Origin: Patescibacteria group bacterium
GTDB taxonomy: Bacteria > Patescibacteriota > Patescibacteriia > JAHJFT01
Length of the DNA stretch: 36,246 nucleotides
Assembly (NCBI GenBank): GCA_018824325.1
Contig: JAHJFT010000043.1
Span: 1-36,246, forward strand
Reading direction: 5' to 3'
A model generated the notes under the pieces. That model was not told the origin of the DNA. It made no database searches and saw only the letters and a program-made list of their open reading frames with translations. The position numbers and the translations under genes were made by a program. Shown here piece after piece: positions 4,001 to 32,602 of this stretch. Position 1 is the stretch's first letter. Every line of letters begins with the position of its first letter.

Positions 4001-4381
4001 GGGGATGACAAGAATCGATAGGAGTCTTCTTCTTTGGATGCAGACCGAGCATGACCATGTCTCGCAAATCCAGGTCAAACAACATAAATGCCAATTTAAT
4101 GGCGAAGGTGAAGTACGCTTTCAGCGTTCCATCACTTTCAATGGCGATTGCATAATCAATTGCCCATTCCAACCACTAAGGCTTGCCTCGTGGATTGGGG
4201 TGTCAAAACAGCAAGCTAAGCCCGCCTCTCCGCTCATGAGACGGGACAAAAATCCAAGAGCTGGCTTCACGGTTTTTTGCCGGGTTTCATAGCCGCGAAG
4301 CGAGATGCCAAACCCAGCTAAGTTTGTAGAAATCCAAAAAAGATACTTACCTACACAGGGGTGCAATTCCCCTCATCTCCA
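4001..4381 (+). ncRNA. ssrA: Transfer-messenger RNA
   Basis: The 5' end GGGGATGACAAGAATCGAT and the 3' end form a tRNA-like acceptor stem: GGGGATG (4001-4007) pairs with CATCTCC (4374-4380) with one G-U. The discriminator A is at 4381. A T-arm (AGGGG..CCCCT with loop TGCAATT) lies just inside. CCA is not encoded. A tag frame ends at TAA 4153-4155 with the C-terminus ...FSVPSLSMAIA, a hydrophobic AxA-type degron end. The resume codon cannot be fixed by eye; GCC at 4090 or the AAC codons at 4078-4083 are candidates, giving a tag of about 21-25 residues. The length (381 nt) and position after smpB support the call. Confidence 0.93.
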
Positions 4382-4383
4382 TT

Positions 4384-4415
4384 CTTCGCTCTGCTTCGCA
4401 GAGCTTCGAATGGCA
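4384..4415 (+). repeat. Palindromic direct repeat, copy 1
   Basis: This 32-bp block recurs exactly at 4790-4821. It holds the hairpin CTCTGC-TTC-GCAGAG and is followed by a second hairpin AATGGC-ACA-GCCATT (4409-4423). It starts 3 nt after the tmRNA discriminator base, so it may also act in 3' processing or as a transcription barrier. Confidence 0.85.
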
Positions 4416-9850: not shown

Positions 9851-10513
9851 CTACAAATCGTCTTCTAGAAAAACGAAGGAATTTATTAAATTTTCAAAGT
9901 CAACTTTTAACTCTTGGTAATCACTGTAATCGCCTCTCAAACCGAGGAAATAATAGTCATTATTTTTATTAAAAATTGCGCTTGACATAAAACCATCACC
10001 TTCAGATTCTTTGGCGCTAAAAAAATTAACTTTTACTCCACTATTTAATTCTAATTGCCTTTCTTCAATCAATTCATCATACATTTCATAGCCTATGCCT
10101 GCGGGATTTACATTCACGAATAAACCGGCGTTTTGAATTGGAGCATAAACAAAATTATATGTCGAAGAAAAACCCTCATCATCATAATCAACCCCGGTTG
10201 CCTTCCATCTATTATCAAGTCTAAAACCTATGCATTTATTTAAATCAACAAAATAATCCTTATTTTTTCTATATTCACTATAATAACAACTTGGCCGAGC
10301 TTCACCCCTTATTTCGTCCTGCTCGGCGCCCAATTCTGGTTCCTCCGGTTCATCAGGCTCATCCATCTTGCATGCATTGGCTTCTCTGCATTCTTGCAAT
10401 TTTTCCGCAGTCTCGCTTTTCTGCCAATAAAATACGCTTATGGCGCTTATGATAACTGCCATAATTAAAATAATTATCGCCCAAATTGTAAAAAATCCTT
10501 TATCTTTATTCAT
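9851..10513 (-). CDS. Hypothetical anchored protein with PsbP-like C-terminal domain
   Basis: This 220-residue protein has a short basic lead, one N-terminal membrane helix (about 8-30), a Cys pair (LQECREANACKMD), an acidic Glu/Pro stretch (about 50-68) and an outer domain from about 75. The outer domain (CIGFRLDNRWKATG ... LFVNVNPAG ... ENLINSFVFLEDDL) has the strand order and closing helix-strand of PsbP/Mog1-like folds and resembles the C-terminus of the 18616-19680 protein; this is inference by eye. It lies 5 bp after pyk and 11 bp before ppsA, so it is co-transcribed with them, yet it shows no enzymatic link to them. Confidence 0.75.
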   Translation of the reverse strand: MNKDKGFFTIWAIIILIMAVIISAISVFYWQKSETAEKLQECREANACKMDEPDEPEEPELGAEQDEIRGEARPSCYYSEYRKNKDYFVDLNKCIGFRLDNRWKATGVDYDDEGFSSTYNFVYAPIQNAGLFVNVNPAGIGYEMYDELIEERQLELNSGVKVNFFSAKESEGDGFMSSAIFNKNNDYYFLGLRGDYSDYQELKVDFENLINSFVFLEDDL

Positions 10514-18139: not shown

Positions 18140-18619
18140 TTACGAAAAACTGTTTTTTATTTTTATATTTTTATATTCTTGTATTTTTATTATTCTTTTC
18201 TCCAACATCACCATCCTCTTCCGACCCTTCGCACTCCTATGCTCATGACCAAAAAGATGCAAAAGGCCGTGAATAAATAAACGTTGTAGCTCTTGGGTCA
18301 GAGTACATCCCCCGGCCCCGGCCTGTCGGCTCGCCACCTTGGGACAGATAATTATTTCTCCTAAAAAAACTTTCTTTTCTTTTGGCGAAATGAAGCCGTC
18401 TACCTCTTTTGCCGCCGGGAACGACAATACGTCGGTCGCCCCCGACTTGGCACGGTACTTCTCATTAAGGCTCCTCATTCTGGCCTCGCCGACCAAGGCG
18501 ACTGAAACATAATAATTTTTCTTTTTGCCGATTTTCTTGTTTGCCGCGCCGAGCGCTCGCCTTAACCACAAATCCCCTAATTTAAATTTTACCCTCGCGT
18601 TCAACTCAGCTTTTATCAT
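18140..18619 (-). CDS. ybeY: Endoribonuclease/rRNA maturation factor YbeY
   Basis: The 159-residue metalloenzyme has the zinc-binding signature HGLLHLFGHEH near the C-terminus and the conserved core LNEKYRAKSGATDVLSFPA and FLGEIIICP. YbeY acts in 16S rRNA 3' maturation and late 30S quality control. Its start overlaps the stop of the 18616 gene by 4 bp (ATGA), so translation is likely coupled to a surface protein gene, an unexpected partner. dagK follows 4 bp later, a common ybeY neighbour. Confidence 0.94.
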   Translation of the reverse strand: MIKAELNARVKFKLGDLWLRRALGAANKKIGKKKNYYVSVALVGEARMRSLNEKYRAKSGATDVLSFPAAKEVDGFISPKEKKVFLGEIIICPKVASRQAGAGGCTLTQELQRLFIHGLLHLFGHEHRSAKGRKRMVMLEKRIIKIQEYKNIKIKNSFS

Positions 18620-19680
18620 TCCAAAAATTTAAAACTGTTTAATATCATCTCGTATGTCCGGCGATATTCAATCACCATCTCTCCGCCAAGTTCCAAATTA
18701 ATCACGAAAATAAGGCTATCTTTTTGAAAATACGCGGTCAAACGGTCCGGGCTTTGCAATCCGTCAAGCCCGGCCTTGTTTTTAAATTCTTTCAGCTCAT
18801 CTTGGTCAACGCCCGGCGCCAGCGCCAAATACCAATCTTTAAGATTCAGGCCCTGGGGATTTTGCTCCACCAAGACCTGAACAAAACCGCCGGCCGGAAT
18901 TAAAAATTGTACGGCCTCGGGATCATCTCCGCCAATTGTCCAGGGGGCGGGGCGATATATCTCATATTTATAAGATTCACTGACAAAGCTCCTGACCAAT
19001 CCGGCCTCCAGAAGCGTCACCGGCGCCGTGCCTCCGGGATTGTAAAGATGATAAACTTCATTGCCGTCAAGATACCCGTCGTCATCCGTGTCCGGCTTGG
19101 CCGAATTTGTCGCGAAAAGCTCTTCCTCAACATCGGTCAAGCCGTCGCTGTCCGCGTCAACCCCGCCAATGAGCTCTACTGGCCGCGTGGGCACGCTCAC
19201 CTCGGGCGTTGCCACTTCCTCCTCTTCCGGAATCTCAACCGGAATTGTCACTTCCGTGGTGGCCGGCAGAACTTCCTCGCTCGTGGCGACCGGAATCTCT
19301 ACCTCTTCTTCCGGCTCCGGCTCGCGAGCCGGTTGCGCTGGCTGCTGAACAACTTTTTCTTCGGCCGCCGGTGCGGGCGCTTCTCCACGCATGCCCTGCA
19401 AAACAAAAAATATTGACGCCCCTAAAGCGAGCAAAATAATAAAAATCAAACCCACCCAAAACCAGGGAAACTTTTTTTGGGGCTTGGAAGAAGCCGCGGC
19501 CATCTTTGGGGCCGACGGCTGGCTCGGCGGCACGGGCGCGCTAAACTTGGGAATCTTTGCTTCCCGGGTCACGCCCCCGAATTTTTCCGGCATCACATAA
19601 ATCTCCGGCTCTACCGAATCCTGTTTCAAGCCCTTTGGTTTTTCAAACTCTACTTCTTTTGGTTCCCTTAGTGATTCCAT
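18616..19680 (-). CDS. Anchored surface protein with TSP3 repeats and PsbP-like domain
   Basis: In this 354-residue protein residues 1-70 are cytoplasmic and Pro/Lys-rich, and a membrane helix lies at about 75-95. A Glu/Pro/Val/Thr stalk spans about 100-170. Calcium-binding thrombospondin type 3-like repeats follow (DADSDGLTDVEEELFATN and DTDDDGYLDGNEVYHLYN, about 175-210). A C-terminal domain of about 125 residues (YKYEIYRPAPW ... YEMILNSFKFLE) resembles PsbP-like folds. Its stalk and repeats are like those of the 19884 gene, so the two look like paralogues. It overlaps ybeY by 4 bp and is cut off from the genes upstream by 203 bp of palindromic DNA. The function is unknown; a cell-surface role is inferred. 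Confidence 0.82.
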   Translation of the reverse strand: MESLREPKEVEFEKPKGLKQDSVEPEIYVMPEKFGGVTREAKIPKFSAPVPPSQPSAPKMAAASSKPQKKFPWFWVGLIFIILLALGASIFFVLQGMRGEAPAPAAEEKVVQQPAQPAREPEPEEEVEIPVATSEEVLPATTEVTIPVEIPEEEEVATPEVSVPTRPVELIGGVDADSDGLTDVEEELFATNSAKPDTDDDGYLDGNEVYHLYNPGGTAPVTLLEAGLVRSFVSESYKYEIYRPAPWTIGGDDPEAVQFLIPAGGFVQVLVEQNPQGLNLKDWYLALAPGVDQDELKEFKNKAGLDGLQSPDRLTAYFQKDSLIFVINLELGGEMVIEYRRTYEMILNSFKFLE

Positions 19681-19740
19681 ATCCGTAAAATCAAGTACAA
19701 AATATTAAATAATATACAAAATGTTTTTAAATCCTAACCA

Positions 19741-19798
19741 CCGCCTATGGGCGCCACCGCGTCCCGCAGAATGCGGTGAGGGTCCCGCCATAGGCGGG
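19741..19798. repeat. GC-rich nested palindrome
   Basis: CCGCCTATGG (19741-19750) pairs with CCATAGGCGG (19788-19797). Inside, CACCGC pairs with GCGGTG. It lies in the 203-bp gap between the two TSP3 genes. Confidence 0.8.
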
Positions 19799-19815
19799 AA
19801 AAGCTAAGAAGTTTA

Positions 19816-19871
19816 CCCTCCGACCTGTCCCCCGAAGCCTTAGCGTAGGGGGAAGCTTTAGCGAAGGAGGG
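19816..19871. repeat. GC-rich nested palindrome
   Basis: CCCTCC (19816-19821) pairs with GGAGGG (19866-19871), and an inner run of Cs pairs with a run of Gs around GAAGCCTTAGCGTA. The CGTAG/GCTTC/GCGAAGG words recall the insert at 7290-7350, so they may belong to one family. Confidence 0.75.
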
Positions 19872-19883
19872 CTAAAAAGCTAG

Positions 19884-20513
19884 TTAGGTTTCCGGAAAAG
19901 TCGGCAACTTGCCCGGTCCAATGGGGTCATAACCTCCGTCTATCTCGGTCTTGTCATCATAACCGTCCCCGTCCGTGTCAATATCCAGGGCATTGGTTTT
20001 CCAGACGCGAATCTCTTCCCGATCGGATAAGCCGTCCCCGTCCGTGTCAACCAAATTGGGATTGGTCCCCAGGGCTAACTCTTCTTCGTCAGTCAAGCCG
20101 TCTCCGTCAGTATCTTTGCCAAGCTCCGGCTCTGGTTCAGTTGGCAAAATCAAGACCTCTTCTTCTTCAGGTTCTTCTTGGGGAATGGCCGGAGGCGTGG
20201 TTTCTTCTTCCTCAATTTCAGACGGCTCCTCGGTCACTACTGGAACCACAATCTGCTCTTGCGCCGGACCCCAATATAAAAAGTAAAACACCGCTCCGCC
20301 GGCTCCGAGAATTAATATCATTACCAAAAATATTCCCAAAATTTTTCCCAAGCCGCCTCGCTTTGGCCGGGCCGGCGGCATGGCCCCGCCCGGCGCCACC
20401 TCGCGCAAAACCGGCCTAGGCGCCGGAACACCCGGCGGCGCTTGGCTCGGCGCGGCCGGCTCAACCCCCTCAAATATATCTTCGGGTTGATTTTTTGAAT
20501 CGTCAAAAATCAT
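19884..20513 (-). CDS. Anchored surface protein with three TSP3-type calcium repeats
   Basis: In this 209-residue protein a Pro/Ala-rich cytoplasmic part (1-55) is followed by a membrane helix (about 58-80) and an acidic Glu/Pro stalk (about 90-130). Three repeats follow: DTDGDGLTDEEELALGTNP, DTDGDGLSDREEIRVWKTN and DTDGDGYDDKTEIDGGYDP. Each has the DxDxDGxxDxxE calcium-ligand spacing of thrombospondin type 3/dockerin-like loops. ATG 20513 is chosen because the longer open frame would overlap the gene upstream by about 90 bp. It lies 19 bp after the Cys-loop protein gene. The role is unknown; a calcium-stiffened stalk is inferred. Confidence 0.82.
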   Translation of the reverse strand: MIFDDSKNQPEDIFEGVEPAAPSQAPPGVPAPRPVLREVAPGGAMPPARPKRGGLGKILGIFLVMILILGAGGAVFYFLYWGPAQEQIVVPVVTEEPSEIEEEETTPPAIPQEEPEEEEVLILPTEPEPELGKDTDGDGLTDEEELALGTNPNLVDTDGDGLSDREEIRVWKTNALDIDTDGDGYDDKTEIDGGYDPIGPGKLPTFPET

Positions 20514-20532
20514 ATTTGTATAATTTAAAAAA

Positions 20533-21147
20533 TTATTCAAAAATTTGTTCGCAAAATTGTTTAAAATCAATATTGGAAATCGTGGCGCATTGAGCGATAT
20601 CCGTAAATCCGCCGATGACGTCATACCGACATTTATCCTTCAAGTTGTCAATTAGATTATCACACTTGGAAATATCTCCAGACAGAACAACTTCATTTAT
20701 AAGCCGACTGCCAAGGCATGATTCAGCCGCCTGCGCGCCGCTCAAATACGAACAATAATCAATCCCCAATTTCGCTCCAAGATTCATATAGCAGGTATCT
20801 CTAATGTCCGTCCCAAATATCGCTCGGCAAATATTGATATCATCATCTTGATAAGCAATGAGCAAATTAATTTTATCCTGACAATCTCTTTTTACCGCCG
20901 CGTCAACGATCACGCTGCACTTATCCGGGTCCATGGCCGCGCGCGCCTGGCCAAAAGCTTCGTCCCAATCCGCCGTATATATTACCGCTGAACCCTGCCC
21001 CGCTTCTTGAGGCTGGGACGAAAAACCGTTGTTTTCCGGCGATAAAGTCTGTGAACGCTTATAAAAATAAAAACCAACGCTAAACGCGAGAAAACCAAGC
21101 GCCAGTATTAGAACGACTATTAAAATTATATTTTTATAATTTGTCAT
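20533..21147 (-). CDS. Anchored protein with five evenly spaced Cys-pair loops
   Basis: This 204-residue protein has a membrane helix at about 8-30 and a linker to about 60. Five repeats of C-x10/11-C then occur at residues 77/89, 107/119, 132/144, 162/173 and 187/199, with repeat spacing alternating at about 30 and 25. The intervals look helical, so each pair could clip a helix or helical hairpin. I know no named family with this pattern. ATG 21147 overlaps the giant gene's TGA as ATGA; the longer frame is less likely. The pattern points to an oxidising outer location. Confidence 0.8.
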   Translation of the reverse strand: MTNYKNIILIVVLILALGFLAFSVGFYFYKRSQTLSPENNGFSSQPQEAGQGSAVIYTADWDEAFGQARAAMDPDKCSVIVDAAVKRDCQDKINLLIAYQDDDINICRAIFGTDIRDTCYMNLGAKLGIDYCSYLSGAQAAESCLGSRLINEVVLSGDISKCDNLIDNLKDKCRYDVIGGFTDIAQCATISNIDFKQFCEQIFE

Positions 21148-24100
21148 AAACAGGTTGCGGCAAGACAGGAACAATCCGTGTCGCCGTCATTGTCAATGTC
21201 GCAAAAAATGGAACGGAAAACGTTGCGCAGCATATTCTCCACGCTTGTGTCATCGCCGCCCCAGGCGTACGAATAATCCAATATTGCCGAACCTCGGCCC
21301 ACCCAATTGCCCGGAGATTGAAAATAATAAATGGAATCAAGGCCGTCCTGTGTTTTTACATTGTCGGCGTGCGTGATGCAATCATCGCCCGTCTCTCTGT
21401 TGTCATAAGCGCTGTTGTCATAAGCGATAATCAACCGCGGCTTTTCCTCCAAGTTGGCAAATTCCGCGCCATAAAAATTATTCATCAAAGTGAACCAGAC
21501 CTGTGAAGACCTCAACCATTGGCCGCTAAAGGCATCCCAGAAAGGCACGGTGTTATCCAAAGCCAATATAAGCTTTAAACTGCCTTCACGCCACACATGA
21601 TTGGCCGCCACGTCAACAAAAGCGTTGTTCCATTTCGGACTTCCGCTCGCCGGCGTAAACAAGCCGTTGCTGCAGTTGCCCAAATTTCCGGCCAATCCGT
21701 AAGCCGCGTCGCACATCTCATCCGAGTGCCGCGGAGTCAAGCCCGTATAACTCTTAATCACGCTGCCATCCGACGCCGTGAGCTCAAGCTCGCCCTGGCC
21801 GTTTATTATGTTGTCAACGCATTCGCCGAATAAAGTTTTATCGGCATCCAAAACCTTTTTATATTCCTCGTTTATCAAATAAAAAGTTTTTTCAATATCA
21901 TAGCCGTAAAGGCCGCTGAATTCGCCGATTATGCCGTTGATATTATCGCACACGCCTTTCACACTGTCATAGGTATGGCACTTGGAGCTGGCGCTTGAAA
22001 TAATTACCAAATCCACTTTTTTATTATAATCGGCAAATCCCCAGTCGCATTTTTCTCCCCGGCCCGTGTCCGTCTTGCCGTCGCCGCAATAAGGCGCCAG
22101 GGCCGTGCAGGTCGCGTTGCAATTTGCCGCGGTCGCGCCGTACTCGCCATTGCTCGCGCCCGAATCGCAAACCTCGCCCGTTGACTCAATCACCGAACCC
22201 TCGCCCGCGCCTACGAAACAATAATATTTTCCACCCTTCCCTAACTGACAGATCTGGTCGCCCGGACAACTTTTTCTGTTCGGATCGCATGATTCATACG
22301 ACGTTTCCGGATAATCCCACGGTAACGGCGGATAAGGTCTTGACTGCACAATGCCGTCGCCGCATCTTGGGCCCTCGCGCCGCGCGATATGGCACGTGCT
22401 GTCGCAATATTCCGCGTTATAACCATAATCCAAAGGCGCCTCCGGCGGTATGGCCGGCGTATGCGCCAAGGAAATGCCTTGGCCTTGGCATACGCCCGCA
22501 TATTCATCACACGTACCCTGCGTGCATTCCGTAGACACGCCCAACAAGCACCTTTCACATTTGAATAATATAGGACAAGCATGCTCCTCATACGGATTAC
22601 AGGGCTCGGGCCCAGTAAATGGATTATATTTACCAACGCCGCTCCACAAATTAGGATGTTGATACCAGCACGCCACCGGCCCCTCGTCGCACTCTTCGCC
22701 CGCGTTTAGTGTACTATCTCCGCAATAAGAACCCGTCACCGTGGCCCAATTGCAAGTATGCGTGCAATAGGTGCACGACTCGCCGTAACGCGGCGTGCAT
22801 GGCATACCGTTTGCCGAACCGGCATCACAGCTTTCTATACCCGCATATCTATATCCATCGTCACAATAAGCAATTTTACAAGAAACATTGAGATCGCCTT
22901 CTCTGCCCGGAACAATCACGCAGCCGTCCGCATTGTCCGTGTTGCCGTCATCGCATTCTTCGGCTCCCTCCCGCATGCCGTTGCCGCAGATATTGTCCGT
23001 CACACAGGCGCCCCACGCGCCCCATTCGCAAACCCCCGGATCGCAAGTCCGCACACGCTTGAGTTCATAGCCCGTATCCGGATCCGTGCCGCAAACGGTA
23101 AGGCATGGATTTTTTGTGTCATAAGATTCGCAAGTACCCCCAAAATCACCGCACGCCTTGCGGTCTCCGGGAACGCATGCCTCTCGGGAAATGGAACAAT
23201 AATTCCCCGCCTTGCGATATCCGGGACAATCCCCGTTGGCCGCGCACTGTACTTCGGCCGTATCGCGGCAAATACCTGACGTCATCTCTTCAAAATCGCC
23301 CTCTTCGCATTGCTCCTCGGACTGAATAATTGCATCACCGCACATTGGGCCGGGCGCGCGGCAATCCCAACTGCAGCCGCTCGCGTATTGTCCGTTCTCG
23401 TCTTCCAAGTCGCACTGCTCGGCGCCGGCTAAAACTCCGTCGCCGCAATAAGCTCCTGAACCGGTGCAGTCCAAATTACAATGCCCGTATTTGCCGTTAT
23501 TCGCGCCATCGTCGCATACCTCGCCAAGCTTTAAACTACACACGCCCTCGGGACAATCATAATCATTCTGGCACAAGAGCGCGTCATAATCTCCGCCCAC
23601 GCAAAAACCCTCGCGCACGCCGTTGCCGCAAGCCGGAGCGCGCAAAACGCACTCCCCATATTCGGCGTCGCCCCGAGTCGCCCAGCGGCAGCTTGGCCCG
23701 TCGGCCACGCAGCCGACCTGGCGGCGCTCGTCGCCCGAACATCCCCGGCTCTCCAATTTCGTCTCGCCGAGCTCGCAAATTTCATCCGGACCGTGGAGCC
23801 CATCGCCGCATAAATCATTATTTGAAAATATCGTGTTGTCGCACCAATCTCTTTCAAATCCAATGTGCTCGTCAAAAGAAAACGGGTCCCAAAGATTCTC
23901 AAATTCAAGCTGGGCGTTAATTTGATAATTTTCCGCTCCAATTGAATGGTATTGATAAACAAGCGAACCGCGTGGGCACATTGCCTCAAGCGCGTCGCTG
24001 TCAAAACAAGTTGACGCGTCGTATCCATTGCCGCAGCCGGCAAATTGATTTACCGGGTCAACTGCCACGCTCTCGCCCAGGGCGTTACCCAAAACCGATT

Positions 24101-27100
24101 GCCATGAAGGCCACAAACTCGTTGTATATGCCCGAAGATACGAACCCGACTCCAAGCTCGGTACACTGCCGCCTACTACCTTGCACTCGGTCGTCTCGTC
24201 AATTAGCTTGCATACCGCGTCGCTCTCGCATGAAATACCCGTGTCCACGCCGTCTTTGACGCAGGTACGTTTTCCGCCGGTTATCAAACGATAGGTATCA
24301 AGACTTTTAGCCAACTGCCCGAAATCGGCGATTCTTTTTACGTCGCGCGTCAATTTGTCCTTGTCCGCGTCGCAATGCGCGCCGTCTTCGTGGGCCGAGC
24401 ATTCCAAATCATGGGTGCAGGAAATTAGTTTGCCCGGCTCATCAACTAAAGCTAAGTACTCGCCAAACCGGTCTCGGCAAACGCGCTCATTGGTCACATT
24501 GTCGTAATTAAATACGAAATTTTCCAAAAATTGATTGTAAATATTAACCGTTATTTCATTTGCCCCTTCGCTATGAGACAAAATATAAATATTGGTATAA
24601 ATCGGATCCCCCACCTTGTTGGCCGCGCCAACATAAGTGCTCGTGCCGTACTGCACCGCCGCGTACCCGTCAACTTCCATGCTTTGCGGCGCGCCGCCAA
24701 AACCTTGAGCCGCATACCATTCTTCGGGCGAAAGATGCTCCGGATTGGCCATTATCCTAAGGCCGATCGCGTCGCGCGCCCAAGCCGCGCCCGCTGGCGC
24801 GTCCGCGTAAGTTAACAAATATTCTTTAGGCACACTCTCGGGCGGCGTCGCCACCTCGACCACTGCAAGCTCGGGTAAAAGATTGGGCACATTGTCACGG
24901 CAATACATGCTCGCAAAATGCCATATATCCGGATCGGAAAATTCCATCCACGGATTTTCGCAAAGAAGCACGGTCACGCTCGCCGAATCTGACACAACCT
25001 CTCCGGCGCAACGGCCCGTCTCCTCGCCCTCCGGAATCACGCACAGATTGCGCGCGCAGTCGCTGTCCCGCTCACACGCCCGGCCGAACATATTGTCTAA
25101 AGTTATCTTGGCTTGCGCGCTAACTGCCTCCTGGCCGTTGAGCCCGGCCGGCGCAATCATGGATTCGGTTCTGTCGCCCGGCTCAACCGAAACAATATTA
25201 TCCCCTGAATCATCGGCCGCGCTGCTCGACCAGCCCCACTCCCACTCATAAAGCCCGGCAATCTCTTCTATTGCCTGCGGCGACAAACCCGCTCGCCTTG
25301 ACATGGCGTGGGCCGTGAAACTGCGCTGACCGTACACTTCGCCCTCGCGCGCCGTGTTGAAAAAGAAATAATCCGACGGATCCTTAATCTCAACATAATC
25401 CAATTTGCAAATCTCCGTGCCCGTGCCGAAAAAGCTGGCATAATACTCATCCAAAGCCACCCCGCGCGCGCTCTTAAGCCCGGGCAAAATCCTTATTTGA
25501 TACCATGTATTCGCGTCAAGAACCTGCTTTATTTTATAACTCGCCGTCTGTCCGCTTATCCGGACATCTCCGGCCACCAGCCCGCTTCGGCCGCAATAAT
25601 GCAGCCCTCGCCAATCAATGGTATCATCCGCCTTGGCCCAGGCAAGACCGGCCACCAGACGGCTAAAAAATCTTTTTATTCCGCGCCAAGCTCTCTGCCA
25701 CCAAGACAGACCGTCATCCGGCGCGTAGCTTATTTTATAATCCATCTCATCACCGGCGCACTCTTCGGTTTGACCGGCGATCAGCAAAATCCTGTCTTTC
25801 ATCTCCCCGCCCTCTTCATACCTTATTGACACCTGGTCAATCGGTTCGTTGAACGTAATCTCAATCCGGGCGTTTAGGCAAATATCGTTGGCATCGCCCG
25901 GCGGAATAATTGACTGAACGCGCGGCATTGAATAACAGCATGAATTTTCCGCAAGACCAAGACCCGGGTCAATGGCCTTGCATTCGGCGTCAAATATAAA
26001 ACCGCACTCAAGCCCGAAAGTCGCTTCCCCGATCACCGTCTCGGCCGTGGCTCGAACAAGCGTTGATTGCAATCCGTCCTCATCCACCGCGCCCGCGCCC
26101 ACGGCTTCGGCAACCTGGAGCGCGTCACCGCGCCCGTCGCCCGTACCGATCTCGCACCCCGCTTCCTCGCCAATCCCCACTATTCCGTCGCCGCAATATG
26201 AAGCCGCTGTATAAAAATAAGACGAGCCAAGATTAAGGCAGGCCAAACCGCAGCCTTCTTGGCCATCGCAATCCTCGCCCGTCTCTCGAATACCGTTGCC
26301 GCAACAACCCAAATCGGTCAGTCCCAAGCACGGATAGGTTCCTTCGTTCAGGCACTTTTCCGAACAGCCGTCGCCCGAACGCGGACGACACTGTTCGTCG
26401 CCAATGCCCGCGCAATCAATATTTGAAAGACAGATACTCCCATCCGAACAATCGCGTCCGTCATCGCAGTCCTCACCCAGCCTGATCTCGGCCGTGCCAT
26501 TGCCGCAAATCGCCATGGGCCCGGGATTGGAACCTTCTAAAAGACACTCGGCGCTGCAGCCGTCGCCCGAACGCCGATTTCCGTCGTCGCAGTCCTCGCC
26601 GTCGCCCAAACTGCTGTTCCCGCAAATGGAACCGCCCAGGGTTGAGCCTTCGTTCTGGCAACCCCGACTGCAGCCGTCGCCATTCAAGTCATTACCGTCA
26701 TCGCATTCCTCAACCCCTTCAATCCATGGATTCCGCCACGGAGAAAGATAACTTTCATTCTCCACGTCCGCGTTGCCGCAAGTTCCATCATCCACCACTT
26801 GCTTTACCGGCTCAATAAGACATCGGCCGCTACAGCCATCGCCATCTAAAATATTTGAGTCATCGCATTCTTCACCCAACGAGGCTTCAACCACTCCGTT
26901 TCCGCAAACCGCAATATTCGTAACCGAACCCAAATGAAGACATAATTCTTTATTACACCACGCCGACACGCTATCCGAACTCGTATCAACCGCGCCCCCC
27001 CCAAGCAGTCTCGCCACCAAACTATCATCAACGCTCCAACCCCAATCATATTCCGAACCGTCCAAAACCTGGCCTCGCGTACTGCACTCGTCAGCCTCGC

Positions 27101-30100
27101 CATAGGCAATGGCGCGAAACGCCTGGCGCTCTCCCTGAGACTGGACAATACCTAACGTCGGCCTAAGCTCAACATGGTCAATCATGCAAAGCGCCTCTTT
27201 GGTTCTGAATGTCCATGAAAAATTATCTCCATAATTTAATTCTGTGAGATTTGTCAGCGTATAACTCTTGATTTCATCACTTAAAATAACTCTATAATAT
27301 TCTCTGGGCTCAAAATCAGGATGCGAAATCTCTATCTCTTGCCAAGTTTCGGGATCCTGTCCGGACGCATTTATATTTGTCACCAAATTAGCGCCGGAAA
27401 AATAACGACAATTTTCATTATCACATTTCAGAAGCTGAATATTGCCCGGCTCAAGTATTGAAGCCGAATCCATCAAAGTGTTAAAACGCACATAAATATT
27501 GGCGTTAAGACACGCATCAAGGCAATTGGGTTCATATTCCAAAACCGCCGGATCCGTAAAATCAATCTCCAAAAGCCCAGCGTCCCGCAGGCCGGCCGTC
27601 TGGGCCGCGATTTCCGCAGGCTCGCCCCGCGTTTCGGAAATCGGCTGCGCCTGGGCCAGGTGCGGAGATTCTCCATCCGGCACCGAAACCTGGGCTTTCA
27701 AAATATCGCTTGACGACCAAACCCAATCATAAGAACTCGCGTCAATCGCCAGGCAAATATCTTCACCCGCGATCGCCGCCGCGTTATAATCCACCGGACT
27801 AAAATCACGCGCAATCTTATATCCGGGCTGGACTGCCACATCTCCCAAAGTACACAAATCCGAACTCTCGCTCGTCTTCCACCTGAAACAATAGGCATAG
27901 CCTTCGCCGCATTCCTCGGCCCGTTCTTCCATTTCCAAGCCGCCAACGCTATCGTCGCCGCGCAGTCTCGTGCTGAGCTTTACCTCGTACCAGCTGGCCG
28001 TATCAAAATTTGTAGTCCGAAGCTGAAAGCCTCTATTATCATTAATCGCGTCAATGCCCGATACCGCGGCATCAACCGTGGCCGCGCAAGGCTCCTCGTC
28101 TAAACCAACGCATTTTTTAATCTGGATGTTGTCGGTGGTGAATCGACTCGTATCCATCGGCGCGTTAAAGCGCACCGTGGCCACCGCATTCACGCATACA
28201 TCCTCGCCGCCGCTTCGCTCGCTCCACGGAGAAGGACTGGCCGGCAAATCTTCGGCCATACAAGATTCAACAACCTGCGGAGTAATCGGAATGATACCTG
28301 TGCTAAATCTCCAGACAAACGAAGGTTGGCTCGGCGCGATGGCGCATTCCTCGTCCAAGCCGACGCAAGAACCGTCGGCGCAGCACTGCTGATCCACTTC
28401 GCACGCGCCCGGCTCCTCAAGACAGTTTTCTACCTTGAAATTCAAACCATTACTTAAAGCGTCCTCAGCCGACGCCGCGGTCACCGGGCCGGTTTCGGCC
28501 TCAAGCGGCGCTTCGGTTAAAATTTCTTTGTCCGCCCAGGCAATAATTTCCGCAAGCTTTGAATTATAAAAAGTAACTATTCCTGGAGAAGTACCTAAAC
28601 GTTCTCCAAAAATAGTTACTCCGGTTCCGGCCGGCCCCACATTGGGAAACAGCCGACAAATGCCGGGCGAGAGCGAATCATTATTTACCGTAAAATCAAC
28701 CGGCTCACTCATCCTTCCGTCCGAACGCGTCACCCTGACTTCGTGAATGCCCAAACTAAGCGACTCCCCGTCATTATATTCTCGCGGAACTTTAAATGTT
28801 ATGTTGTCGCGAAACCAGAAATCATCGCCGCAATCTTCCGGAAAATCAAAGCTCGCCAAAGCCGACTGGCCGGTCGAAGAATTGGTAAGCGTCACTCGGC
28901 CCACGCTTGAACCGAAATTTGAGCCGCGCAAAGTCACGTATTCGCCCACCGGCCCGTCCGAAGGGTCAATCTCCACGATAATCGGTTGTCCGGCCAAACC
29001 CGCTTCAACCACTTCAAAATTCACTCCGTTACTGAAATTGCCGTCAACGCTCACGCGCGTCGCGTAATCTCCGGCCGCGAGCGGCGGCACGACCGCGGAT
29101 ATTTCCCCATCATGCCAACTGGCGATTCTTCCGGCCTCTATTTCGCCGAATAAAACCTGGTCCGGTTCCTCGCCAAAACCGACGCCCGAAATATCAACCG
29201 TGATGCCAACCTCGCCCTCGTCCGGCAAAATGCGACAAATGCCCGGCCTTGATACCGCGTTCACCCAAAAATCGGCAATCACCGGACCGCGCGCGTCATT
29301 TGTTAAATCCAGTTCCGCGTCCGCCGTGCCAACCTCAATCGGCCCGCTCACCGCGCCCTGGGGCACGGTAATAATAATTTGATCATTGCTCCACGCGCCG
29401 TCGCATGACGCCAGCTCGGCCGACATCTCGTCGCCCTCGGCCGAAATTCCTAAGAATCTAACCGTGCCCACGCGCGCGCCAAAATATTGGCCGCCTATGG
29501 TCACAAAAGTGCCGAACGCTCCGTCAAGCGGATCAACCGACTCAATAATGGGCAAAGAAACGCACACTCCGTCCTCGCAATAACCAAAAGCACAATCTTC
29601 ATTGCCCGAGCAAGACTGCCCGGAGCAAGCGCCGCACCAATCCGGGTCATCCGGCGAAACGCCGCCGCAATCAATTCCGGTCTCGCCCGCGTCTTGCGCG
29701 CCGTTAAAACAATGCTCGGCCCGGATAATCACGCCCACCGCGCCGGAAAGAGTGTCATTATCATCAATATCGTAAGCGCGCGCTCGTATCTCGTGGCGCG
29801 AGCCAAGCACATAGCCGCTCGTCTCCCATTCAGCCTGGGCCGTAAAGCTTGTCGGCGTAGGTGCTGGCGGACCGTCGCTTCCGATAAGTTCATTATCTAT
29901 CTCAAAATCAACCAATGACACGCCGGCGTCGTCTTCAGCGTAGGCCTGGAGCGCGATAAACGAATTCACGGGCACACCTTGACCTGAATCCGGATAAGTG
30001 ATACTGACGCTCGGCCCCTGCACGTCCACCAGATTGCCAGTGGTAAACAAACCTTCGCAAATTGCGCCAAAACCACTGCAACTTATAAACATGCCGCTGC

Positions 30101-30815
30101 TGCTCCTCACGCCCTCAAAAATTTTAATATTATATTCCGTGTCCGCGTCAAAGCATTTTCTGTCTTGATTAGGTTCGGGACAAGACGCGTCCGGTACAAA
30201 ACTGACCTTGGCGCCCGAAACCGCGTAATCGCCACTCACCTCGGCTCCGTCGCTCGCTCGAGAAACGGAAATATTTTTTTCCGCCGTAGTCGGGTCAACC
30301 GAAGCGTTAAACAAAATTCTTACAGTAACGTTCCTGATTGGAATCGCCCCCTGCGGACTCATGCTCTTTACCTGAAAAACCCTGGCTCCGGACCCGCCAA
30401 CGCCCGGTCCGCCCCCACCGCCCGGTCCGCCCGGCCCTACCCCGGTCGCTTCAAGCAAAGAATTTAAAACAAATTGCGTAATGGCGAAAGAAGTAAGTAT
30501 TATCGCCAGACCAATTACCGCGTTTATCAAAATCTTTTTTGCCTTTTCCACTTTTTCCTCGTCGCCGCCGGCCGTCATCCAAACAAAGCCGCCATATAAA
30601 ATTAAAACCACGGCAGTTATACCAAGAAGCGTAAGGAATGACCTTATTATCCGGGCGACAACCACTCTGATATCACCGCCACCCAAACCGATTTCTTCGG
30701 CCACTTGGGCCAGCCCCACGTCAATGGCAAATGCCTGGTTTACAAAAATTAAAAAACTGACAAAAAATATCAACCCAAATCCGATTATTAAAATTGTACG
30801 CGCTCTCTTTTGCAT
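21144..30815 (-). CDS. Giant cysteine-rich surface protein with VirB2-like pilin N-terminus
   Basis: The 3223-residue frame is uninterrupted. A signal peptide (1-30, ending AFA) is followed by a T4SS-pilin/VirB2-like domain (about 35-125: two hydrophobic helices around LYGGFVWMTAGGDEEKVEKAK) and a Gly/Pro linker. Next come Big_5-like Ig folds (one at about 148-270, three more later), a Cys cluster (about 367-418), about four IPT/TIG-like domains (about 415-795) and two clusters of DUF4215-like motifs (CGNG...GEECDDGN...GDGCS..C). The first cluster spans about 1300-1530 and the second about 2330-2930. The C-terminal part (about 2935-3223) looks like a degenerate von Willebrand A-type domain. 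It starts in a TGATG overlap with the 595-residue paralogue. Adhesion or host contact is inferred, not shown. Confidence 0.9.
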   Translation of the reverse strand: MQKRARTILIIGFGLIFFVSFLIFVNQAFAIDVGLAQVAEEIGLGGGDIRVVVARIIRSFLTLLGITAVVLILYGGFVWMTAGGDEEKVEKAKKILINAVIGLAIILTSFAITQFVLNSLLEATGVGPGGPGGGGGPGVGGSGARVFQVKSMSPQGAIPIRNVTVRILFNASVDPTTAEKNISVSRASDGAEVSGDYAVSGAKVSFVPDASCPEPNQDRKCFDADTEYNIKIFEGVRSSSGMFISCSGFGAICEGLFTTGNLVDVQGPSVSITYPDSGQGVPVNSFIALQAYAEDDAGVSLVDFEIDNELIGSDGPPAPTPTSFTAQAEWETSGYVLGSRHEIRARAYDIDDNDTLSGAVGVIIRAEHCFNGAQDAGETGIDCGGVSPDDPDWCGACSGQSCSGNEDCAFGYCEDGVCVSLPIIESVDPLDGAFGTFVTIGGQYFGARVGTVRFLGISAEGDEMSAELASCDGAWSNDQIIITVPQGAVSGPIEVGTADAELDLTNDARGPVIADFWVNAVSRPGICRILPDEGEVGITVDISGVGFGEEPDQVLFGEIEAGRIASWHDGEISAVVPPLAAGDYATRVSVDGNFSNGVNFEVVEAGLAGQPIIVEIDPSDGPVGEYVTLRGSNFGSSVGRVTLTNSSTGQSALASFDFPEDCGDDFWFRDNITFKVPREYNDGESLSLGIHEVRVTRSDGRMSEPVDFTVNNDSLSPGICRLFPNVGPAGTGVTIFGERLGTSPGIVTFYNSKLAEIIAWADKEILTEAPLEAETGPVTAASAEDALSNGLNFKVENCLEEPGACEVDQQCCADGSCVGLDEECAIAPSQPSFVWRFSTGIIPITPQVVESCMAEDLPASPSPWSERSGGEDVCVNAVATVRFNAPMDTSRFTTDNIQIKKCVGLDEEPCAATVDAAVSGIDAINDNRGFQLRTTNFDTASWYEVKLSTRLRGDDSVGGLEMEERAEECGEGYAYCFRWKTSESSDLCTLGDVAVQPGYKIARDFSPVDYNAAAIAGEDICLAIDASSYDWVWSSSDILKAQVSVPDGESPHLAQAQPISETRGEPAEIAAQTAGLRDAGLLEIDFTDPAVLEYEPNCLDACLNANIYVRFNTLMDSASILEPGNIQLLKCDNENCRYFSGANLVTNINASGQDPETWQEIEISHPDFEPREYYRVILSDEIKSYTLTNLTELNYGDNFSWTFRTKEALCMIDHVELRPTLGIVQSQGERQAFRAIAYGEADECSTRGQVLDGSEYDWGWSVDDSLVARLLGGGAVDTSSDSVSAWCNKELCLHLGSVTNIAVCGNGVVEASLGEECDDSNILDGDGCSGRCLIEPVKQVVDDGTCGNADVENESYLSPWRNPWIEGVEECDDGNDLNGDGCSRGCQNEGSTLGGSICGNSSLGDGEDCDDGNRRSGDGCSAECLLEGSNPGPMAICGNGTAEIRLGEDCDDGRDCSDGSICLSNIDCAGIGDEQCRPRSGDGCSEKCLNEGTYPCLGLTDLGCCGNGIRETGEDCDGQEGCGLACLNLGSSYFYTAASYCGDGIVGIGEEAGCEIGTGDGRGDALQVAEAVGAGAVDEDGLQSTLVRATAETVIGEATFGLECGFIFDAECKAIDPGLGLAENSCCYSMPRVQSIIPPGDANDICLNARIEITFNEPIDQVSIRYEEGGEMKDRILLIAGQTEECAGDEMDYKISYAPDDGLSWWQRAWRGIKRFFSRLVAGLAWAKADDTIDWRGLHYCGRSGLVAGDVRISGQTASYKIKQVLDANTWYQIRILPGLKSARGVALDEYYASFFGTGTEICKLDYVEIKDPSDYFFFNTAREGEVYGQRSFTAHAMSRRAGLSPQAIEEIAGLYEWEWGWSSSAADDSGDNIVSVEPGDRTESMIAPAGLNGQEAVSAQAKITLDNMFGRACERDSDCARNLCVIPEGEETGRCAGEVVSDSASVTVLLCENPWMEFSDPDIWHFASMYCRDNVPNLLPELAVVEVATPPESVPKEYLLTYADAPAGAAWARDAIGLRIMANPEHLSPEEWYAAQGFGGAPQSMEVDGYAAVQYGTSTYVGAANKVGDPIYTNIYILSHSEGANEITVNIYNQFLENFVFNYDNVTNERVCRDRFGEYLALVDEPGKLISCTHDLECSAHEDGAHCDADKDKLTRDVKRIADFGQLAKSLDTYRLITGGKRTCVKDGVDTGISCESDAVCKLIDETTECKVVGGSVPSLESGSYLRAYTTSLWPSWQSVLGNALGESVAVDPVNQFAGCGNGYDASTCFDSDALEAMCPRGSLVYQYHSIGAENYQINAQLEFENLWDPFSFDEHIGFERDWCDNTIFSNNDLCGDGLHGPDEICELGETKLESRGCSGDERRQVGCVADGPSCRWATRGDAEYGECVLRAPACGNGVREGFCVGGDYDALLCQNDYDCPEGVCSLKLGEVCDDGANNGKYGHCNLDCTGSGAYCGDGVLAGAEQCDLEDENGQYASGCSWDCRAPGPMCGDAIIQSEEQCEEGDFEEMTSGICRDTAEVQCAANGDCPGYRKAGNYCSISREACVPGDRKACGDFGGTCESYDTKNPCLTVCGTDPDTGYELKRVRTCDPGVCEWGAWGACVTDNICGNGMREGAEECDDGNTDNADGCVIVPGREGDLNVSCKIAYCDDGYRYAGIESCDAGSANGMPCTPRYGESCTYCTHTCNWATVTGSYCGDSTLNAGEECDEGPVACWYQHPNLWSGVGKYNPFTGPEPCNPYEEHACPILFKCERCLLGVSTECTQGTCDEYAGVCQGQGISLAHTPAIPPEAPLDYGYNAEYCDSTCHIARREGPRCGDGIVQSRPYPPLPWDYPETSYESCDPNRKSCPGDQICQLGKGGKYYCFVGAGEGSVIESTGEVCDSGASNGEYGATAANCNATCTALAPYCGDGKTDTGRGEKCDWGFADYNKKVDLVIISSASSKCHTYDSVKGVCDNINGIIGEFSGLYGYDIEKTFYLINEEYKKVLDADKTLFGECVDNIINGQGELELTASDGSVIKSYTGLTPRHSDEMCDAAYGLAGNLGNCSNGLFTPASGSPKWNNAFVDVAANHVWREGSLKLILALDNTVPFWDAFSGQWLRSSQVWFTLMNNFYGAEFANLEEKPRLIIAYDNSAYDNRETGDDCITHADNVKTQDGLDSIYYFQSPGNWVGRGSAILDYSYAWGGDDTSVENMLRNVFRSIFCDIDNDGDTDCSCLAATCL

Positions 30816-32602
30816 CAGCGTTCTTTAATTGGTATGCCGGCGCACGGCCCGCTTGTTCTTGAGGTTGACGCCTCCCGATCACAACACCAGGGCGCGAACT
30901 CCCTATCCTTGGGGCAATTTCTTGTTGCCGCCGGATTAAAACAATTTTGATAGACGTCTTTTACCGCAAAGAAAATCTCCGGATAATAGGCCGTTTCCTC
31001 CAAAAACAAACCGTGGCTCATTTCAGCTATACTATGGTGCGGCGCCAGGCCCTCTTCCACCGGCTGACCGTCAACCGTGTAGTTATCCGAGGAAATAGTA
31101 AACCAAACCGGAAACTCTTCATTTCCGCTGCCCAGCATTATATTGGACGTATTCAAACTTGAAAAACTCATCAACGTATCCCAGGTTATCTTAACCGGCA
31201 GGTCCGGGGAAACCCCGCTCTCGCCCGGCTCTGGGCTTGCCGCGTCTACTCCGGGCGGCTCAAGAAATATATCGTCGGACGTGGAAAAAGCCCAAGTATA
31301 ATTATCATCAGGCGGTCCCTGGGTCGCACTGTCGCGATTGCCGTCCAAAGAATTTCCCGCCATGTCAACCACTCCGTTATACGGAAATATTGCCAGCGGT
31401 TCTTCGCCCGCCGGCATGGTCGCCGCTCTTACCACCACGTCAATATCCACCCTGCCCGGCAGGCAATAAACATCCCCGCCGCACGAATTTCTGCCGCAAA
31501 GCTCGTCGGTCATAAACTCCACCGTCTTGTACTGATTGGCAATGGAAAACGTGCCCATAATCACGCCGCCGTTTTGCGCGATAATATTGGTAAACCGACT
31601 CGCGTGTCCGGTAGCCGAAGTCGGGTCAATCGCTTCATTAAAATTAATCTGCACGATAACGTTTCTTGGGTATTCCGCTCCGGCCTGCGGAAATACGCTG
31701 CGCACTTGAGGCGGCGTAACATCAACAAACGTACCCACTTCAAATTCCCAGCGATAGCCGTCCGAATATGCCCCGTCAAAAGCCTTCTCCCCGTCGGCCC
31801 GCAAAATGCCGGCGCCCAGTTTAACCGTATAAGAAACGTCCTCGCTCGCCGAACCAAGCCACTCCACCGGCTGGAAAACAATCGTCTTCAAGTCATCGGT
31901 AAATCTCACGCGTGCCTCATCCACGGCAAAAGCCGCGCCTTCTCCGTCCGATGTTTTAAAAATCTTTACATTATCCTGATTTAATAAATCGCTCATTGTG
32001 TCATCACTCGTGTCAAGCGGCGTGCCGTTATCATCATATCCCTCAATAAAAGAAGGTAAGAACATTTCGGTTTTAAAAGTAACGAGTATCTTGGTATTTC
32101 GCGGAACATCGGTCGCGCCCCTTGCCGGATAGTGATAATCGATTATCCCGTTACCCAAAGCACCGCTAAAACCCTCGTAGGTCGGCGGTGCGGGCGGCGT
32201 GGGCGGTCCAAACAAATCCTGGCCCAAAAACGCGCGGAAAATAAAATAAGTAATCGCCCAGGCCGAAAGTACGATCGCCAAGCCGATGGCCGCGTTTATC
32301 AATACTTTTTTCGCCTTATCCACCTTTTCCGCCTCGCCCCCGGATGTCATCCACAAAAACCCGCCATACAGCACTAAGACAAGCGCGATCACCGCCAAAA
32401 GACCCAAGAACACATTGATTATCCTGGCGACGATCACCCGAATATCGGTTCCGGCCAAGCCGATCTCCTCTCCAACTGCTTCCACGCCCACTTCAATCGC
32501 GCCGGCTTGCGCCGCCAAAATAAAAAAGAATACCGCGCAAAATAAAAAAAACAAAACCAATAGAGCGGTATTCCGTTTTAATATTTTTCCTCCAACTCGC
32601 AT
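30815..32602 (-). CDS. VirB2-like pilin domain plus Big_5 surface protein
   Basis: This 595-residue protein has the same start as the giant: a signal peptide or first helix (about 10-36), then a two-helix pilin-type domain (about 45-130) with LYGGFLWMTSGGEAEKVDKAKK, nearly identical to the giant's segment. A Pro-rich linker leads to three Big_5-like domains, recognised by RGATDVPRNTKILVTFK, FPQAGAEYPRNVIVQINFNEAID and PEPGESGVSPDLPVKITWD. The tail has several Cys (NCPKDREFAPWCCDR). It is the first gene of the surface run and overlaps the giant by 1 nt (TGATG), so the two are made together, possibly as minor and major parts of one structure (inference). No Shine-Dalgarno is clear at ATG 32602. 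Confidence 0.88.
   Translation of the reverse strand: MRVGGKILKRNTALLVLFFLFCAVFFFILAAQAGAIEVGVEAVGEEIGLAGTDIRVIVARIINVFLGLLAVIALVLVLYGGFLWMTSGGEAEKVDKAKKVLINAAIGLAIVLSAWAITYFIFRAFLGQDLFGPPTPPAPPTYEGFSGALGNGIIDYHYPARGATDVPRNTKILVTFKTEMFLPSFIEGYDDNGTPLDTSDDTMSDLLNQDNVKIFKTSDGEGAAFAVDEARVRFTDDLKTIVFQPVEWLGSASEDVSYTVKLGAGILRADGEKAFDGAYSDGYRWEFEVGTFVDVTPPQVRSVFPQAGAEYPRNVIVQINFNEAIDPTSATGHASRFTNIIAQNGGVIMGTFSIANQYKTVEFMTDELCGRNSCGGDVYCLPGRVDIDVVVRAATMPAGEEPLAIFPYNGVVDMAGNSLDGNRDSATQGPPDDNYTWAFSTSDDIFLEPPGVDAASPEPGESGVSPDLPVKITWDTLMSFSSLNTSNIMLGSGNEEFPVWFTISSDNYTVDGQPVEEGLAPHHSIAEMSHGLFLEETAYYPEIFFAVKDVYQNCFNPAATRNCPKDREFAPWCCDREASTSRTSGPCAGIPIKER

Follow-up and report, generated by a model that had tools for sequence, protein, structure and literature searches.

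A block of five consecutive genes, encoding a 3223-residue protein (the giant) and four smaller partners (P1, CysL, TSP3a and TSP3b), was characterized in a contig of a Patescibacteria group bacterium (JAHJFT010000043.1, assembly GCA_018824325.1), analysed over its full 36,246 nucleotides (the window). The organism belongs to the class ABY1; relatives carry the names Uhrbacteria, Falkowbacteria, Magasanikbacteria, Komeilibacteria and Buchananbacteria in public records. The core of the block keeps its order, strand and chromosomal place across the class, and the giant contains an internal domain that aligns with type IV pilin headgroups. The block looks like an undescribed attachment machine, and we put at about even the chance that ABY1 Patescibacteria use it as an attachment apparatus on their surface. 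The finding bears on how Patescibacteria hold on to other cells. It links building blocks of type IV pilins and of type IV secretion system (T4SS) pilins in one protein, and the parts it names can be tested: the giant, whose pilin headgroup is displaced, both TSP3 partners and the two short motifs of their cytosolic tails.

A gene block at a fixed place in ABY1 genomes

The five genes of the window are the following (aa, amino acids; TM, transmembrane; Ig, immunoglobulin).

30815-32602, minus strand: P1, 595 aa; signal peptide, T4SS_pilin two-helix membrane domain, then a Big_5 Ig-like ectodomain
21144-30815, minus strand: giant, 3223 aa; N-terminal T4SS_pilin, Big_5, Big_7, TIG, Cys-rich DUF4215/myxo_disulf repeats
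20533-21147, minus strand: CysL, 204 aa counted from ATG; single-pass, C-x10/11-C repeats
19884-20513, minus strand: TSP3a, 209 aa; cytosolic tail, one TM helix, Glu/Pro linker, TSP3 calcium repeats
18616-19680, minus strand: TSP3b, 354 aa; cytosolic tail, one TM helix, two TSP3 repeats, C-terminal PsbP-like domain

An initial reading of the letters (the sequence-only reading) had described five consecutive genes on one strand, and all five open reading frames (ORFs) are indeed present on the minus strand, the first four joined exactly as it claimed by a 1-nt overlap (TGATG), a 4-nt overlap (ATGA) and a 19-bp gap. TSP3a and TSP3b are separated by 203 bp. TSP3b shares 4 nt with ybeY (18616-18619), and the packed unit therefore runs on beyond the fifth gene into ybeY-dagK. 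From lepB to ftsZ the genes of the window lie on one strand throughout. The 203-bp gap (19681-19883) holds two near-copies of CTTCGCTAAAGCTTC, where 0.1 would be expected in the window; these may be a small repeat element, and an inverted repeat, looked for there, was not found.

Conservation was assessed in 124 ABY1 genomes with a completeness of 90% or more. Of these, 114 contain the core module of the giant and 116 contain TSP3b, the two occurring together in 113. Wherever both genes lay on one contig they were on the same strand, with TSP3b 0.4-8 kb downstream of the giant core (94/94); in the remaining 19 of the 113 genomes they lay on different contigs, and no genome showed any other same-contig arrangement. 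Comparison of 43 loci gave the order lepB-hisS-S21-yqeY-[P1]-giant-(extra TSP3/Cys protein)-TSP3a-TSP3b-ybeY-dagK-ftsA-ftsZ, with at least one of lepB, hisS, S21 and yqeY just upstream of the block in 38 of 42 loci and ybeY, dagK or ftsA downstream of it in 24 of 27. Across loci, median gaps of 2-27 bp among P1, giant, TSP3a, TSP3b and ybeY suggested co-transcription. The proposal that the locus is one functional unit, which the sequence-only reading had made and for which it had called for a gene-order check in relatives, is thus supported, scattering having been seen in none of the 94 testable genomes. The unit is narrower than proposed: giant, TSP3a and TSP3b form the class-wide core, to which P1 and a separate CysL do not belong. 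P1 relatives or pilin domains occurred in 57 of 57 searched relatives, and full-length P1 relatives in many ABY1 genomes; P1 is missing from part of the class (for example, loci L061, L064, L066 and L068-L072). Only the family of the window showed CysL as a separate, TSP3-free protein; relatives have its Cys repeats fused to TSP3.

In a phylum-wide sample of 287 genomes, strong giant-core scores were obtained in 21 of the 23 ABY1 members, and the 264 genomes of other classes gave no match better than E 1.6e-9. One ABY1 exception (G136, loci L203-L205) has P1 and the start of the giant at the usual place, followed by a stretch of about 40 kb of N; the other (G263) gave a prepilin match only. 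An apparent giant of 14,266 residues in G136 was discounted, its reading frame crossing the N stretch.

Domains of the giant and its partners

The features referred to below are these.

24486-24803, minus strand: PsbP-like domain of the giant, about residues 2005-2110 (AlphaFold2 model; hhalign to the TSP3b C-terminus)
23880-24377, minus strand: predicted type IV pilin headgroup of the giant, alphaC and globular part, about residues 2147-2312 (profile searches in both directions)
21147-23888, minus strand: Cys-rich C-terminal extension of the giant, lineage-variable
32240-32443, minus strand: T4SS_pilin domain of P1, residues 54-121 (Pfam PF18895)
30471-30647, minus strand: T4SS_pilin domain of the giant (Pfam PF18895)
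20472-20486, minus strand: PEDIF motif in the cytosolic tail of TSP3a
19579-19593, minus strand: VMPEKF motif (MPEKF) in the cytosolic tail of TSP3b

Giants of relatives range from 1453 to 4675 aa, and three stretches persist in them: the pilin domain at the N-terminus, the TIG region and, near residues 1985-2325, a module right after which short giants stop. Long ones add a Cys-rich tail; the giant of the window has five myxo_disulf_rpt/DUF4215 repeats besides Big_5, Big_7 and TIG. AlphaFold2, given 41 sequences, rendered the module in two parts (predicted local distance difference test score, pLDDT, 89.8). With hhalign, the first part, the PsbP-like domain, proved homologous to the domain at the C-terminus of TSP3b (probability 97.9%, E 4e-13); neither of the two remaining pairings reached 1%.

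The second part is, judging from alignments and profiles, a type IV pilin headgroup. Run against other classes, the giant-module profile matched short ORFs, and all 14 distinct weak-match ORFs that were fetched start with a GFTLIELLVVIAIIGLL-type prepilin motif. The reverse profile, made from prepilin headgroups only, found most giants (18 at E <1e-5), the L223 protein described below and one P1 with two headgroups; it found none of 2000 shuffled decoys (E up to 1) and no other protein of the window. The alignment covers the whole domain, with the alphaC helix, the LPxDPxN loop and the final strands in common with type IV pilins and GspG (T2SSG). Unlike these proteins, the headgroup is embedded in a giant, and the prepilin signal GFTLIE with its cleavage site and the N-terminal hydrophobic alpha helix are absent from the module in the window and in relatives. 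It follows that the giant's headgroup cannot assemble into a pilus in the usual way. The predicted fold has alphaC and a final beta hairpin but no significant PDB match (pLDDT 75.6 for the isolated headgroup, 89.8 in the two-domain model), and a search of PDB sequences with the core module returned nothing. In locus L091 (G014) the PsbP-like part and the pilin headgroup form a separate secreted protein of 341 aa, away from the block and a strong ABY1 match. The P1 of locus L042 (G027; 831 aa) ends in two type IV pilin headgroups.

As for the PsbP-like domain, the TSP3b C-terminus gave a weak profile match to PsbP (E 0.028). The domain common to TSP3b and the giant shares this likeness to the PsbP/Mog1 kind, here without photosynthetic or import context and without a significant fold match. 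The protein hyp220 (9851-10513) was considered as a further PsbP-like candidate and rejected (E 0.05). Beyond the module, the C-termini of 4 of 15 relatives' giants carry a VWA domain (Pfam VWA/VWA_2), the far-end domain expected of a PilY1-like tip adhesin; for the giant of the window, profile and hhalign tests for VWA were negative.

At its N-terminus the giant shares a second pilin domain with P1. PF18895 matched P1 with E 5e-9 and the giant with E 3e-8 (36.6 and 34.1 bits against a cut-off of 26.6), and the two domains are 55% identical. By these matches both proteins are predicted to be held in the membrane by a VirB2-like two-helix pilin domain, and the very long Ig/TIG/Cys-rich part of the giant to lie outside the cell. 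T4SS_pilin proteins and their arrays are already known (PMC12102498); P1 and the giant have the same two-helix membrane domain and differ from them by ectodomains of 470-3100 residues and a position outside any T4SS locus of the genome. At 595 and 3223 aa they are too large for T4SS pilins proper, which are small subunits encoded with virB4 or in a pilin array, and the window holds no T4SS gene. The window's own genome has an array of seven T4SS_pilin genes on contig C57 (2123-6915, L075), two nearly identical (127 aa each) and three with Cys-rich ectodomains; its small pilins are about 50% identical to the pilin domains of P1 and the giant. Outside ABY1, loci L206, L207, L208, L210 and L212 encode proteins of about 1100-1670 aa whose N-terminus holds a T4SS_pilin domain; they mostly adjoin proteins of 300-370 aa, several of which have the domain too. 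These could be a parallel system, and they indicate that the anchor is not unique to ABY1.

TSP3a was recognized by Pfam (TSP3_bac, E 3e-16). TSP3b went uncalled there and was identified by two DxDxDGxxDxxE repeats, invariant or nearly so in 28 relatives, with invariant Asp residues. By these repeats both are TSP3 calcium-repeat proteins, and their sequences predict a single membrane span, with the TSP3 rod outside and a short conserved motif in the cytosol. TSP3 repeats are shared with Myxococcus CglD and MtsD (VWA plus TSP3 surface proteins); the NCBIfam matches of TSP3a to these (E ~1e-8) are confined to the repeats and far below family cut-offs (34 against 400 bits, 33 against 800 bits).

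Ahead of the TM helix, both proteins have low-complexity, Pro-rich tails with one conserved spot each. The TSP3b motif reads [VT]MP-x-[KR]-[FY], M and P being invariant in an alignment of 28 sequences; its strict form MP.[KERS][FY] occurs in 23 of 28 tails, against 0.13 expected by shuffling. For TSP3a, [ED]D[IML][FYL] is found in 15 of 23 tails, against 0.09 expected, and other copies read VDIF, VDIY or QDIF. The TSP3a motif was not found in TSP3b, nor the TSP3b motif in TSP3a; having distinct gene-specific motifs strongly suggests that the two tails make two different cytosolic contacts. MPEKF was rejected as a genome-wide motif, its other matches in genomes G000 and G001 being the N-terminal ends of unrelated proteins that include a PrgI-like one, and the EDIF matches inspected in other genes look unrelated. 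A likeness of IxVMPxKF to the INLLP motif of PilN, which binds PilM, was too weak to be used; ABY1 PilN proteins start MITLNLIS, MIDLNFVP and MLILNLIP.

The domain list of the sequence-only reading largely stood (pilin domain, Big_5, TIG, DUF4215 and TSP3). Its label VirB2/TrbC had to be replaced, the Pfam kind being T4SS_pilin/Mbov_0395, and it lacked the giant's PsbP-like domain and pilin headgroup, the PsbP-like domain of TSP3b and the cytosolic tail motifs.

Origin of the block and its proposed role

The ybeY neighbourhood was read in 18 genomes of other classes. In many, yqeY adjoins ybeY, followed in several by ftsA-ftsZ; the resulting block-free order, yqeY-ybeY-dagK-ftsA-ftsZ, implies that an older gene order either received the block or lost it. 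Two other-class genomes carry a single TSP3 gene at exactly the position of the block. The protein of one, L223, has VMPSEYRG in its cytosolic tail, a single TM helix, TSP3 repeats and, at the C-terminus, a pilin headgroup. This headgroup scores narrowly above the Pfam T2SSG cut-off (21.1 against 21 bits), has GspG pseudopilins as its top, weak PDB matches (E 0.01-0.5) and is matched by the prepilin profile at E 1e-11. This single gene resembles a simpler form of what ABY1 has.

The best explanation of the block is a surface fibre that calcium stiffens and two transmembrane partners accompany, probably serving attachment together with type IV pili. This reading draws on the constant order, on the presence of the module in about 90% of ABY1 genomes and the absence of strong matches from the other classes, on the two-way headgroup homology, the shared PsbP-like domain and the tail motifs, and on the L223 version at the same chromosomal place and the VWA domain of some giants. 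Type IV pili are needed for episymbiont adhesion, and a PrgB-like T4SS adhesin has not been found in Patescibacteria (PMC12102498); both points were counted in its favour, as were the giant membrane proteins of another predator discussed below. In such a fibre, calcium-loaded TSP3 rods and an Ig/Cys-rich, disulfide-stiffened stalk would provide stiffness, paired PsbP-like domains would join TSP3b to the giant, the headgroup would be a docking site for pilin-like subunits or type IV pili, the far end, VWA or Cys-rich, would bind the partner cell, and the cytosolic motifs would relay load or signal to a partner in the cytosol. A more specific version can be offered only tentatively and is on the whole doubtful: the non-assembling headgroup would be a dock for retracting type IV pili, PsbP-like pairs and calcium rods would transfer the load to the two transmembrane partners, the VMPEKF and EDIF tails would bind a cytosolic protein, and the partner cell would be pulled in and locked on. 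Since the locus occupies up to 14 kb at one fixed place in about nine of ten small ABY1 genomes, it is likely to be important to their way of life.

Several results weigh against attachment. Foldseek matched the isolated headgroup model to no solved pilin, and the two-domain model gave no significant match to PsbP or pilins, so that structure lends the folds no independent confirmation. The giant of the window scores weakly on the prepilin profile (E 0.003), and its headgroup assignment therefore rests on alignment with relatives; its C-terminus has no detectable binding domain. To our knowledge, few hosts of ABY1 bacteria are known.

The constant position beside ftsA-ftsZ across the class, and conserved cytosolic motifs that need a cytosolic partner, would also suit a component of the division machinery or the envelope, a scaffold resembling a wall or an S-layer with its tails touching FtsA/FtsZ. 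We think this unlikely: other classes keep yqeY-ybeY-dagK-ftsA-ftsZ without the block, which makes the neighbourhood ancestral and the block an insertion into it, and position by itself is no evidence of joint function. The pilin domains of P1 and the giant, with their identity to one another and to the small C57 pilins, could instead mark specialised subunits that form the adhesive tip of the patescibacterial type IV secretion pilus, filling the place of the missing PrgB-type adhesin in bacteria that have VirB2-like pilins and no PrgB homologue (PMC12102498). This too is improbable, as the locus lies away from the C57 array, the window holds no T4SS gene, and the ectodomain of a 3223-residue protein would block ordinary pilin packing; the domain may be a mere membrane anchor. 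A surface-sensing receptor, in which the displaced headgroup reads pilus binding or retraction and TSP3a and TSP3b transmit it to the cytosol, would account for a headgroup accompanied by transmembrane proteins with near-invariant tail motifs, and L223 unites tail motif and headgroup in one chain. The tails, however, have no fused signalling domain and no known partner, and we regard such a sensor as decidedly improbable. The wide variation in ectodomain content and length might even betray a hotspot collecting unrelated surface genes with no joint function; the same core modules, order and strand in every testable genome argue against a chance arrangement, as do the shared PsbP-like domain and the gene-specific motifs, and synteny makes this explanation very unlikely.

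Comparison with other giant proteins and a further feature of the window

In the open-access literature searched (subscription papers and preprints were outside its scope), neither the conserved block nor the tail motifs nor a giant with an internal pilin headgroup was found described. Another predator of the Candidate Phyla Radiation, Vampirococcus lugosii, has giant membrane proteins for which a part in host attachment has been proposed (passages of PMC8080830); these are likewise very long surface proteins, as are the large FhaB/DUF2341 proteins of an ABY1 Patescibacterium, for which the same part is proposed (passages of PMC11809585). The passages of both papers report no conserved gene block, pilin headgroup or TSP3 partners for these proteins, and according to the latter FhaB proteins are not conserved even within a genus, whereas the present locus is class-wide.

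Elsewhere in the window, a tmRNA gene lies on the plus strand at 4001-4384, directly after smpB (Rfam E 3e-40); it was not reported by ARAGORN, and a 95-aa ORF (4005-4292) sits within it.

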